A stretch of DNA of 64,000 nucleotides from Phycisphaerales bacterium (GTDB lineage Bacteria; Planctomycetota; Phycisphaerae; Phycisphaerales; UBA1924), in contig JALSHH010000025.1 in assembly GCA_026982335.1 (NCBI GenBank), forward strand, positions 1-64,000. The letters run 5' to 3'. Below are positions 47 through 52,041 of this stretch, piece by piece. A program made the translations under genes and the position numbers. The notes beneath the pieces are model-generated. The model made no database searches. It saw nothing but the letters and a program-made list of their open reading frames with translations, and was not told the origin of the DNA. Position 1 is the stretch's first letter, and each line of letters starts with the position of its first letter.

Positions 47-124
47 GTCTTCCTGCCTTCCAAATACGCCCATTCTACGAGGATACTCGCATAAAGAATG
101 GACTAGGATTTGGGGGGCAGGTCA
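1..124 (-). mobile_element. End of an IS3-like insertion sequence (left end and OrfA start)
   Basis: The minus strand reads TGACCTGCCCCCC at 124-112, about 78 bp upstream of the OrfA ATG at 46. IS3-family ends begin with TG and often carry a C-rich stretch nearby, so 124 is my best estimate of the element boundary. If so, the upstream secreted-protein gene reads into the element and ends within it at 103. The other end and the target duplication lie outside the window, so the boundary is an inference. Confidence 0.5.
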
Positions 125-875
125 AAGGATTGGTCTGAAGTGCATTGTATAACCGAACAGTCTTCACAGACTTTTGTCTTCGTTCGGGAGCGGGTGCCGA
201 TGATGGTTCGGCGAAATTTTGTTTGTGCTCTACACCCTGATAGCAAAATAGTATCCACCGGAGTCCAAGATTGGCAGGTCACTACCCATGGTGTGGGGGT
301 AGATATTATAACATCAGTTTCTTCACAAGTGGCGCATCCGGAGTTGGCGCGTGCAGTTTGATATCCATCTAGAAACGATCCGGGCAGCATTATTTCTGCC
401 TCAGCACCCGCTTTGACCCAGTCGATGATATTGGCAATACTTCTGGGGCAATCGTCAGCTGGTGATGGCGGGCCAACATTTGCTCCTCCGATTGTTGCCG
501 TTGCAGAATGGCCAATTGTTTCTAGTGGCTCAAGCAATTGGGTTGGGTTGTCCATGCTCGATATTGTTGGTTGTAATGGATCATTAAAAAAGAGACCGTT
601 ATCAAACGGAGCGGGTGCCACTGGGCCAGCTGTGTCGCTTTCGATAAGGGCGGTTTGGAGCATTGGTAGGTCAATGTCGAAGGGGAGGTAATCGACTTGT
701 TGCTCTAGGTTCATTGATAAATCAACATGTAGAAAGACAAGCATTTCCTCGTGGCTTGATTGTGTCCACGCTGACGATACAAGGCCAGCATCGGTATCCC
801 ACTCAAACAATACGCCAGAAATGGAAAAAAGATCAATTGTTTCAGGTGTCCGAGTGGCAAACACGCTGGTCACCT

Positions 876-883
876 CCCCCCCC
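876..883. repeat. C8 homopolymer at an apparent frameshift
   Basis: Eight C residues on the plus strand (G8 in the minus-strand gene). Upstream of it the plausible protein frame reads RGDWVFVPIVDGG; downstream the open frame EVTSVFATR is offset by one base. With seven G residues the two frames would be continuous. Confidence 0.75.
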
Positions 884-962
884 ATCAACAATTGGAACGA
901 AGACCCAATCACCTCTTGTCAGTGAAGTGTTGGCGAACTCACCTCCAGCGTATACTGTTGAC

Positions 963-1039
963 GAGAGGCAGAGAGGCAGAGAGGCAGAGAGGCAGAGAGG
1001 CAGAGAGGCAGAGAGGCAGAGAGGCAGAGAGGCAGAGAG
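963..1039. repeat. Octanucleotide tandem repeat, nine copies of GAGAGGCA
   Basis: Nine perfect copies of GAGAGGCA run from 963 to 1034, followed by a partial GAGAG to 1039. On the minus strand the unit is TGCCTCTC, which has no stop codon in any frame. Three units (24 bp) encode the octapeptide CLSASLPL. Because 8 is not a multiple of 3, each gain or loss of one unit changes the downstream reading frame. Confidence 0.95.
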
Positions 1040-1097
1040 TTCGTAAGCGATTAACCATTTTCATTTTTTTCCTTTCACTGCTTTTTATAAAATAAAC

Positions 1098-1114
1098 ATG
1101 TCCACGGTGGACAT
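1098..1114. promoter_or_regulatory. Perfect 17-bp palindrome between divergent genes (operator candidate)
   Basis: ATGTCCAC, one central G, then GTGGACAT: a perfect inverted repeat. It lies 34 bp upstream of the secreted-protein start (1064, minus) and about 140 bp upstream of the plus-strand solute-binding protein gene. An A/T-rich stretch next to it (1081-1097) could supply a minus-strand -10 region. The shape fits a site for a dimeric regulator; no regulator is identified here. Confidence 0.45.
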
Positions 1115-1257
1115 CTCAGTATATCACAAGCGGGGATACTTTGCAAATGAAGGCAAGGGGTTGTGCGGCAAGGGTTTGCGTGGGCGATAGGTGCTGTTGG
1201 CACGAAGAATAGCTCCTTGCTCGAATGAGTAGGGGGCTTGGGCCATATACTTGCACA

Positions 1258-2935: not shown

Positions 2936-4024
<1,089 letters not shown>

Positions 4025-48987: not shown

Positions 48988-51900
48988 CTAGTTGCCCGGG
49001 GCTCGTATCGGGGTGGGGGTGTTGATTTCGATGCGGTCTTTGGCCAAGTTCCAGGTCATGGTTTTGGCGGACATCGGGGCGGGCTGATTCTCGTCGTAGA
49101 GGGTGACGAGTTTGTGATCGATGGCGCTGGCGAAGAGTGAATCGGTGATGGCGTCGTAGAGGGCCGAGTCGGCGATGAGTTCTCTGTTTTGGTAGCGGAA
49201 CCGGACCGAACCGATGGCATCGACGCCGAGTAGTCGTGTTGATTGCTCTTGGTCTTGTAGGCCAAACTCGAAGCGTGCATCGAGTTGATTGGTGTTGAGT
49301 TGGGCGATTTCGCCGGTGGATATGGTTTTTGGGCGGACAAGGACCTGATCGGTGAATCGGGCGGTTCCTTGGGCGCGATCGAGGTTCATTCGTCCTTGCC
49401 AAGTGAATCGGGTGAGCCCGGGGGGCGCAGCTGTGGGTTGGGCAGCGGCATCGTCAGCATTGTCGACAGCCCGGTCCATGATCAAGAGCGTGCCTGGTGC
49501 CGGGATCGTCAGGGTCTGGTTCTGGTTGTCAGCGAGAATTTGCGGGCCTTCGAGATAAATCAGCCCGATGACGCGTTCGGGTTGGTCTTGGTCGTATGTG
49601 CGGGATTCGATTTTGGCGAGGACGGGATCTTGGCCCAAGGGGGCGTAGCCATAGATTCGTGCAGTGATGAGTTCGCGGGTGTTGGATGTGGAATTGGTGC
49701 CTGCGATGGGATCAGTGGTGGGGTTGGGAGTGAGTTGGATTTGGGCGCGGTGGGCGGTGAGGGTGTCGCGGGTGTAAGGATCGGGGGTCGAGACGACTTT
49801 GACTTGATCTTCGCAGACGATCGACCCGATGGCGTCGTCGAAGCGCATTGTGCCTTTCCAAGTGGCGCGGATGTGTCCGGTTGCCAATGCGTTGGGGTTG
49901 TCGCCTTCGAGGGCGATGTCGTGGTCGAACGAACCTGGGCCGAGGACTTCGATCGAGCGTCTTTGGGCGTTGAGGTTGATGTGATCGCCGAGGATTGAGG
50001 ATCCTCCCTGGGTGATTTTGGCCGGGGTGCCGAGGAGGGTCATGGTCTCGTTGAGTGTGTCTGCCTGGAGGGTGTTGCCTTGGGCAGCGGTTTGATCTGG
50101 GCCGGTGTATTGGATGGTACCTTGGGCATTGGCGGTGCGGACGATGGTTTTGCCGGCAGGGTTGCGCATGAGGGTGATGACGAGGTGCTCGGTTTTGAGT
50201 ATGGATTCGTGGTTGCGTCCGAGGACTTGGCCCGTGGCGAGCAGACGGATGGGGTCGATGGGGTTATTGCCTGATCCGGGTATGAAGTCGATTTCGAGTG
50301 TTGTGCCGGTGAGTAGGCTTTTTGAAGCACTTGAGAGGACGCCATCGGCGAGGGTGATTTTCGTCAGGGCATTGGCGGATGGACGCGACGGATCGAACCG
50401 GGCATCGAGGATTCCTGCCCCGATATAGTTCCCTGCTTGTTGAGCGATGACGGTGCCTTCGAAGCGAGCATGGGTGAGTCGATCGGTCAAGGCATGATCG
50501 ATCATGTCGAGGGTGAATGTGGCGTTGTTCTTCCATTGAATCGTGGCGTGTGATTCAGGGTCCGAGGGGTTGCCTTGCAGAGCGGTGATCTGCCCGCGGT
50601 CGGTAAGGGTGACGATGCCTTTGGTGAGGTCGGCGACGAGGGAGGTGGCGATGAGTGTTCCTGTGTCGGGGGTTTTGAGTTCGATGATGCCAGCTTGGGT
50701 TTGCTTGGATTCAAGTTCGAGGACGCCTTGGGTGGCGAGGTAGGTTGCAGCAAAGGCTTGCCCGGTGAAATCCTGTTCGGGGAGGGCGAAGGTGATGCCT
50801 CGCTCTTCGTCAGCGGTTAATCGCAGGGCCAGTGCGTTGTCAAGAAGTTGAGATGGGGGGGGGGCTGCGATGGGGCGCAGGCTCATTTTGCCCGACCAAG
50901 TGATGACGATACTGGTGGCTGGCTGAGCTTGGGGAGTTGGTGTTGTTTTGGGATCGGCAGGTGATGAGGCAACTGGGATGGGGTTGGTCTGGGGGGGGGG
51001 GGGGGGTGGGGTTGGAACCAAGGCGATGGGTTTGATGGCGTCATCGGGGAGGGTGCCCCCTTGGAGTGCTGCCCAGAGTTCGAGCCGATCGGCAGTCGCG
51101 CTGCCCGAGCCAACAACTTGGGCGACGACTTGATCGTTTAGGGTGATGTGGTACCGGGTGAGTGTGTCGGCGATGTTTTGGGGGTTGGTTTGGGGGTTGG
51201 TTTGGATTGGTGTGTTCGATGATGCGGTTGGTGTGGGGTTTGGGTGATTCTTTTTATTTTCTTCGTTCTCTTTCCTATTATCCATTGTCCATTGTTCATT
51301 GCTTTCTTTGTGCTTTGCCCGGCGTTGAGGTGTTTTTGACTTGGTGTTGGTATGGATGACGAGCTCGTCGCCTTGGACGACATCGATGAGTTCGACACGG
51401 TTGCGGAGCTCGTTGAGGATCACGGTGAGGTTGGCGCCCGAGAAATCGAACTGTGGGGAGTTGATTTGGAAGTGTCCCGATGATCGCAGGCGGAGGTATC
51501 GGCGTTCGAACTCGACGGGTTGATCGAATCGGGCGGTGAGGATTGGGCTGTCGAGGGATTCTTTTGACGCGAAGGCTTCGATGAGGATGTTGCCTTCGAG
51601 TGTGCCCGATTCGGGGGGCTGATTTGGATCGGGCATGAGCATGGTGGCGAAGTCTGCGGTGATTTTGATCGCTCGCCCGTCTTGTGGATAGATCCATGAC
51701 TCGGGGTTGTCGAGTCGTCTTCGTCCTTGTCCGATGGGTTCGAATCGGTCGGCTTTGAGTGTGCCTGCGACTCGTGTGGGGTTGTTTTTGTCGACCATGG
51801 TGACGAGCATTTCGCCTCCGGTTTGGGTCTCTTCGATGTTGGGGATTTCGCTGGGGTCAGCGGGGAAGAGATCGGCGTTGGAGGCTGTCGGGGTATGTGT

Positions 51901-52002
51901 GTTGGCGACGGAGACCCAGATGATGAGGATGAAGATGAGTGTCAAGAGTCCAGCGGCGAGGAGTCCAAGGGTTTTTGTTGAGATTCCTGAGGGTTTGGTC
52001 AT
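48988..52002 (-). CDS. Large LptC/LptA-like LPS-transport protein (1004 aa)
   Basis: 1004 residues. A membrane anchor at 12-32 (LGLLAAGLLTLIFILIIWV) is followed by an LptC-like beta-jellyroll (to about 220; SGTLEGNILIEAF, LRSSGHFQINSPQFDFSGAN). A polar linker (222-275) contains an inserted NEQWTMDNRK stretch. OstA/LptA-like strands then recur: a short segment (277-325), a proline linker coded by a C16 tract, and a long repeat region (363-1004) with GTLEGNI-like turns, ALTDRLTHARFEGTVIAQQA, ADTLNETMTLLGTPAKITQG, and SFDHDIALEGDN. LptC and LptA bridge LPS across the periplasm; a fused bridge is inferred. kdsD and kdsC lie just upstream. No lptB is adjacent. Confidence 0.75.
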   Translation of the reverse strand: MTKPSGISTKTLGLLAAGLLTLIFILIIWVSVANTHTPTASNADLFPADPSEIPNIEETQTGGEMLVTMVDKNNPTRVAGTLKADRFEPIGQGRRRLDNPESWIYPQDGRAIKITADFATMLMPDPNQPPESGTLEGNILIEAFASKESLDSPILTARFDQPVEFERRYLRLRSSGHFQINSPQFDFSGANLTVILNELRNRVELIDVVQGDELVIHTNTKSKTPQRRAKHKESNEQWTMDNRKENEENKKNHPNPTPTASSNTPIQTNPQTNPQNIADTLTRYHITLNDQVVAQVVGSGSATADRLELWAALQGGTLPDDAIKPIALVPTPPPPPPQTNPIPVASSPADPKTTPTPQAQPATSIVITWSGKMSLRPIAAPPPSQLLDNALALRLTADEERGITFALPEQDFTGQAFAATYLATQGVLELESKQTQAGIIELKTPDTGTLIATSLVADLTKGIVTLTDRGQITALQGNPSDPESHATIQWKNNATFTLDMIDHALTDRLTHARFEGTVIAQQAGNYIGAGILDARFDPSRPSANALTKITLADGVLSSASKSLLTGTTLEIDFIPGSGNNPIDPIRLLATGQVLGRNHESILKTEHLVITLMRNPAGKTIVRTANAQGTIQYTGPDQTAAQGNTLQADTLNETMTLLGTPAKITQGGSSILGDHINLNAQRRSIEVLGPGSFDHDIALEGDNPNALATGHIRATWKGTMRFDDAIGSIVCEDQVKVVSTPDPYTRDTLTAHRAQIQLTPNPTTDPIAGTNSTSNTRELITARIYGYAPLGQDPVLAKIESRTYDQDQPERVIGLIYLEGPQILADNQNQTLTIPAPGTLLIMDRAVDNADDAAAQPTAAPPGLTRFTWQGRMNLDRAQGTARFTDQVLVRPKTISTGEIAQLNTNQLDARFEFGLQDQEQSTRLLGVDAIGSVRFRYQNRELIADSALYDAITDSLFASAIDHKLVTLYDENQPAPMSAKTMTWNLAKDRIEINTPTPIRAPGN
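50855..50864. repeat. G10 homopolymer in the LptC/LptA-like gene
   Basis: Ten G residues on the plus strand, coding AAPPPS prolines on the minus strand. In frame at present length. Confidence 0.9.
50991..51006. repeat. G16 homopolymer in the LptC/LptA-like gene
   Basis: Sixteen G residues on the plus strand (C16 on the coding strand), encoding the PPPPPP of a linker. The reading frame is open on both sides at this length, and any change not a multiple of three would truncate the protein at about one third. Confidence 0.9.
51281..51301. repeat. Three heptamers (TCCATTG, TCCATTG, TTCATTG) in an A/T-rich insert
   Basis: Three tandem 7-bp units in an A/T-rich patch of about 90 bp unlike the surrounding gene. 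They encode NEQWTMDN within the low-complexity linker of the LptC/LptA-like protein. It resembles short dispersed heptamer repeats that have landed in frame. Confidence 0.7.
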
Positions 52003-52041
52003 AGCGGATTGTAGGTTGGAAACAAGGGCAATTTGGATTCT

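Follow-up and report, generated by a model that had tools for sequence, protein, structure and literature searches.

A gene near the start of a contig from an uncultured Phycisphaerales bacterium opens with an 8-bp tandem repeat, and the question it raises is whether this repeat switches a secreted protein on and off or marks a gene that has broken. The window, i.e. the whole stretch that was analysed, comprises the first 64,000 nucleotides of contig JALSHH010000025.1 (assembly GCA_026982335.1). In the original prediction nine repeat copies were placed behind an ATG at 1064 with a Shine-Dalgarno sequence, and this was confirmed: the TGCCTCTC array consists of nine exact copies and a partial one over 77 bp (100% match), and AAAGGA precedes the ATG (Table 1). 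In the array scan it was by a wide margin the best-scoring tandem array of the window, and in a scan of the 2.56-Mb draft genome it was the sole site with at least three copies of TGCCTCTC. As in contingency loci, a perfect short repeat lies in the 5' coding region and its unit (8 bp here) shifts the frame.

Table 1. Features of the window gene and start-region repeats of its relatives (C and G numbers, contigs and genomes; L numbers, loci).
Feature	Position	Strand	Basis
8-bp tandem repeat (TGCCTCTC)9.6, coding for a putative hydrophobic signal-peptide core	963..1039	minus	array scan and frame reading
Opening ORF, out of frame, MKMVNRLRTL(CLSASLPL)3VNSIRWR*, 41 aa, ATG at 1064	939..1064	minus	ORF list
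Shine-Dalgarno AAAGGA, 5' of ATG 1064	1070..1075	minus	sequence
Promoter-like TTTGCA-N18-TATACT, extended -10 TG	1118..1147	minus	consensus scan, 9/12 matches; no proof of function
Perfect palindrome ATGTCCACCGTGGACAT (= ATGTCCACSGTGGACAT), between -10-like box and Shine-Dalgarno	1098..1114	minus	sequence
Frame +1 segment STVYA-GGEFANTSLTRGDWVFVPIVDGG: putative signal-peptide end, likely cleavage site, mature-domain start	877..962	minus	homology to paralogue C7 LAGDFLDTSLVKDGWYFVPVIEDG
G8 homopolymer, second frame change needed before the body; G7 would join	876..883	minus	paralogue C7 reads through with GGGG here
Protein body, open frame, 269 aa from first GTG, no known family	103..912	minus	ORF list, family searches
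Repeats in the window's genome: window gene (TGCCTCTC)9.6; C7 (CT)11; C24 (CCCCGTA)5; C15 (GCTGGACG)5.2; C6 (CGGCAAGTGG)3			
Repeats in other genomes of the genus: G014 (CCCGTAC)4.9; G016 (TGCCCCG)4.1; G015 13-bp unit x2.6; G006 (GGCTTCTT)3.1; G008 (GAACA)7.8			
Repeats in other genera: (GCGTCCA)4.7; (CACTCTGCCT)4; (GT)12; (GT)9; (CT)11; (TG)10; (TCGCTGG)4.4; (GGGCCTCC)7.5; (GTCGCTC)5.1; (GCCTCTT)3.3			
Promoter-spacer tracts in members with no start repeat: G12 in G006:C7 (L019); G10 in G115:C31 (L094); GGGGGCG repeats in G125:C9 (L083)			between promoter-like boxes, by eye

Under the mechanism proposed here, the start codon is separated from a conserved body by a short tandem repeat, which would gain or lose units by slipped-strand mispairing. 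With a unit that is not a multiple of three, every step would shift the body into or out of frame with the ATG, and cells of both the ON and the OFF phase would thus occur in a population. For the window gene, the signal core would be encoded by the 8-bp repeat itself, so that the in-frame copy numbers (4, 7 and 10) would also set the length of the signal peptide, computed as 26, 34 and 42 residues, respectively; the four-copy version has a textbook length and a 13-residue core. The signal-peptide label of the repeat ORF is a prediction from composition and homology, and slippage, switching and a surface or secreted role are likewise predicted from sequence.

The segment beginning STVYAGGEF lies one frame off the repeat ORF and is joined to it with 1, 4, 7, 10 or 13 copies. 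The original prediction had named 10 or 7 copies, and the frame does join there, but the product would then have just 76 or 68 aa, because a further frame change, at G8, is required before the roughly 30 codons after the repeat lead into the 269-aa body. A second lesion had already been hinted at in that prediction (as 'C7'), and it matches the frame change at 876-883. As assembled, the gene is therefore OFF at the repeat and carries a further frame change in G8. In the paralogue on contig C7, too, the frame changes a second time, at T6, and in both genes this second change falls in a homopolymer. The palindrome upstream of the Shine-Dalgarno sequence is possibly an operator or a leader hairpin; its 15-bp core TGTCCACNGTGGACA had no second occurrence in the genome scan.

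Used alone as a query, the window ORF found no relatives in scans of genome contigs and viral contigs, and the family surfaced only through whole-genome searches and a profile. These gave paralogues in the window's own genome on contigs C7, C24 and C15, with a remnant on C34, and relatives within the genus; a profile of 11 members had matches in 50 of the 163 genomes of the GTDB family and in some from a second family of the order. None of the 11 members matched Pfam above cut-off, NCBIfam gave no match to the family body, and a PDB sequence search gave none below E 0.09. A fold assignment was dropped, the AlphaFold2 model of a relative having a mean pLDDT of 50 and Foldseek returning nothing below E 0.001. 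Family proteins combine a conserved N-terminal domain with a C-terminal part that is rich in Cys and has spaced Trp and Arg residues, and their signal-peptide-like N-termini point to secretion. The copies on C6 and C34 appear truncated.

Downstream of several members a membrane protein was observed that carries a CxxCxY...CPECG zinc ribbon at its C-terminus (L016 1166-2068, L017 620-1489, L077 1089-1967 and L079 2727-3497), with no Pfam match above cut-off. Contigs C7 (L016) and C13 (L148) of the window's genome (G000) open with a common sequence of ~110 bp, within their first ~120 bp and upstream of different genes, which may be read as a repeated promoter or leader segment. Contig breaks near family genes (C7, G014:C18 and G005:C44 end near the 5' end) were considered as a sign of repeat heterogeneity, and the argument was dropped because C7 has its first ~110 bp in common with C13.

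In genus members the repeat directly follows an ATG preceded by a Shine-Dalgarno sequence, which is weak in C7. Unit lengths within the genus subfamily are 2, 5, 7, 8, 10 and 13 bp, and other genera also have 12- or 13-bp units farther upstream. In most relatives the repeat occupies the stretch that codes for the n-region just 5' of the signal core, and a few have it in the 5' UTR or the promoter spacer; the promoter-spacer tracts of G006:C7, G115:C31 and G125:C9 possibly represent transcriptional phase variation. Homologues that begin elsewhere and lack the repeat were to count against the original prediction; those found start at the same site, usually with a different frameshifting repeat.

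For counting, a strict rule was applied to the 5' region: a perfect repeat with a unit of 2-15 bp, at least 20 bp long (16 bp for dinucleotides) and with at least 2.5 copies. Such a repeat was present in 10 of 15 members of the genus subfamily and in 2 of 604 control ORFs (p ~1e-16), a close comparison though not an identical one, as the search was anchored on the open-frame start in controls and on a conserved motif in the family. Controls were ORFs of at least 150 aa from two genus genomes, with two non-family matches counted and family matches set aside. In other genera of the GTDB family the rule picked out 14 of 52 members.

Orthologous loci were then compared between species, one genome each. 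In the four dus-linked loci (C24, G014:C18, G016:C3 and G015:C27) the flanks align across the Shine-Dalgarno sequence, the ATG and the signal core, and the repeat differs: the unit is CCCCGTA in C24 and G014:C18, a mix of CCCCGTG and CCCCGTA in G016:C3, and 13 bp long in G015:C27. A gene of G007 that aligns with this set (dus neighbour not identified) encodes a plain signal peptide and shows a gap where the others have their repeat. The metG-linked pair has an 8-bp unit in C15 and a 5-bp unit in G015:C3, and C6 has 3.0 copies of a 10-bp unit of which its likely counterpart G014:C31 has 2.3. Copy number or unit thus varies among orthologues, which is the outcome, between species, of the comparison of copy numbers in relatives that the original prediction proposed.

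The frame could be read at 19 loci that passed the strict rule and in which the repeat separates a clear start from the body (G111:C1 was left out). Sixteen were out of frame, and three (G008, G175 and G124) were simple fusions through the repeat. The OFF share is somewhat above the two thirds expected from random phase; with two weaker repeats included, 3 of 21 were ON (p 0.07). In single-lesion relatives (C24 and C15, for example), one copy-number class restores the full-length frame. OFF genes keep their bodies open over some 300 codons, with pN 0.30-0.37 against pS 0.70-0.81; among the dus-linked orthologues, all of them OFF, pN was 0.33-0.37 and pS 0.71-0.81, and dN/dS was 0.19 between C15 and G015:C3, both of which are OFF. 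Bodies that are intact and conserved in the OFF state would not be expected of genes that are simply dead, and the pattern fits genes that are switched ON often enough.

These data also bear on whether the window gene is a recent pseudogene, in a family with an unstable 5' end, with two frame changes and its switching over. Both the repeat and G8 have to change before the body is reached, C7 has its second change at T6, and the C6 and C34 copies seem truncated. A pseudogene should, however, have stops or frame changes spread through its body, and here the disruptions are confined to the repeat and the homopolymer, with the 269-aa body free of stops. Differences between C7 and the window gene (on contig C25) fall in excess on third codon positions (0.65, against 0.50 and 0.39), and the single-repeat relatives C24 and C15 have no second lesion. 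We regard a pseudogene as unlikely, and the window gene as either a doubly switched or a recently broken member of the family.

The length of the unit speaks to a different account, in which the repeats are neutral tandem duplications tolerated in the n- and h-regions of the signal peptides of dispensable genes. Signal peptides tolerate sequence change, and some members have no repeat. Neutral repeats should nevertheless favour multiples of three because the frame must be kept, and the unit length of 23 of 24 family repeats was not divisible by three, compared with 5 of 12 non-family repeats from 818 kb of sampled stretches of the same genomes. By the strict rule repeats were also absent from the members in another family of the order (0/7) and from a divergent subfamily (0/4), besides being rare in the gene background, and this account is accordingly very doubtful.

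About as improbable is a model in which the repeat ORF encodes a leader peptide and the length of this peptide governs transcription or re-initiation, in the manner of the GCAGA repeats in the Streptococcus gallolyticus pil1 operon, with no frame switch of the protein. OFF frames often end just past the repeat (in the C24 set a single base short of an in-frame TTG), and the window has a terminator-like palindrome upstream. The good Shine-Dalgarno sequence and the ATG nevertheless belong to the repeat ORF, with the signal core directly next in one frame; G008, G175 and G124 are fused in frame through the repeat, and the window sequence that separates repeat from body contains no terminator-like site. 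That the frame changes arose from errors of assembly or sequencing, the gene being in frame in the organism, is extremely improbable: the gene comes from a 56-contig draft assembly, but the 77-bp array is shorter than one short read and the pattern is repeated in many separate assemblies, including the single-contig genome G175.

The family probably represents multi-locus, Opa-like phase-variable secreted proteins in Phycisphaerales, switched by slippage of start-region repeats. Counting against this are the OFF share in excess of random phase, the second frame change in both the window gene and C7, the several members that have no repeat, so that the trait is not universal, and the repeats of 2.5-5 units, which may mutate slowly. 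Unrelated repeats at one spot across relatives strongly suggest that these free-living bacteria switch the secreted proteins by slippage. A slippage-switched secreted protein, as originally proposed for this locus, is strongly supported at the family level, where homologues have the same start, frameshifting repeats, mostly OFF frames and constrained bodies; the window gene itself needs the G8 change too. The earlier interpretation is right in kind, and its scope is much larger than stated. With somewhat less confidence, the start region (start codon and signal peptide) or the promoter spacer can be seen as a fixed site where ever-changing hypermutable tracts would arise, be replaced and be lost, in a multi-locus phasome of free-living planctomycetes in which selection would keep the mutability of the site and not any one repeat.

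Other repeats and tracts were observed in the same genome. In the window a G16 homopolymer (50991-51006), possibly a further slippage site, lies in a 1017-aa open frame (48991-52041, minus strand), with a G10 tract ~130 bp away at 50855. Contig C22 (L165 ~3490-3520) has (CA)7 in the signal-peptide n-region of a subtilisin-like secreted protease, in frame as assembled and unrelated to the family. On C6 (L141 12753-12773) (GGCAATA)2.9 spans the start codon of a gene for a LolD-like ABC transporter ATPase, in which the first ATG is out of frame and a later one in frame. A 13-bp unit x3.8 on C22 (L165 1950-1998) and an 11-bp unit x3.0 on C27 (L169 4306-4338) lie a short distance upstream of the start codons of other genes and are possible 5' UTR repeats. 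Near contig ends, G12 on C27 (L169 17730-17741) and C14 on C34 (L176 14097-14110) suggest that assembly breaks off at long homopolymers.

In the opa genes of Neisseria, (CTCTT)n repeats in the leader-peptide coding region set the frame (PMC3960869). The Phycisphaerales family resembles them in being a multi-gene family with a short repeat in the part of the gene that codes for the signal peptide, with a unit that is not a multiple of three and copies that would set the frame. No sequence relation was found, i.e. neither homology to the Opa beta-barrel nor the CTCTT unit, and the family would work like Opa without being a member of it. To our knowledge one and the same unit occurs in all opa genes, whereas in the Phycisphaerales family it varies from gene to gene and between orthologues. 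Opa also differs in serving a pathogen as an outer-membrane adhesin. Turnover of long units at one locus is known from Haemophilus influenzae hmw1A/hmw2A, with 7-, 8- or 9-bp repeats by strain (PMC2651432), and is a likeness to the present family, but in hmw the repeats are for the most part located 5' of the gene and alter its transcription, at two loci of one species. In S. gallolyticus pil1/pil3, GCAGA copies change the frame of a short 5' ORF and the leader controls a terminator (PMC3894217), unlike the window repeat ORF, which in one frame runs on into the protein. Within the phylum, a long-read study of lake Planctomycetota reported many structural variants, with noncoding deletions often at intergenic tandem repeats, and invoked slippage (PMC9426551). 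Repeat variation at the population level is the likeness here; unlike the present family, the lake variants are intergenic, and that report names no phase-variable gene or family. In the open-access literature we found no report of phase variation or of a phase-variable gene family in planctomycetes, in line with the original remark that no planctomycete example was familiar.

Switching by repeat slippage is otherwise documented mainly in pathogens and host-associated bacteria. Whether multi-locus phase variation is restricted to pathogens was named an open question in a 2025 review (PMC11868660), and a repeat-switched secreted family in many genera of uncultured Phycisphaerales would bear directly on it. 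It suggests a selective pressure from phages or predators and not from host immunity. With corresponding sites that are repeat-free, repeat-bearing or rebuilt with another unit, the family would offer a natural experiment on the origin of contingency loci, and mutability itself would thus be open to study as a selected trait.
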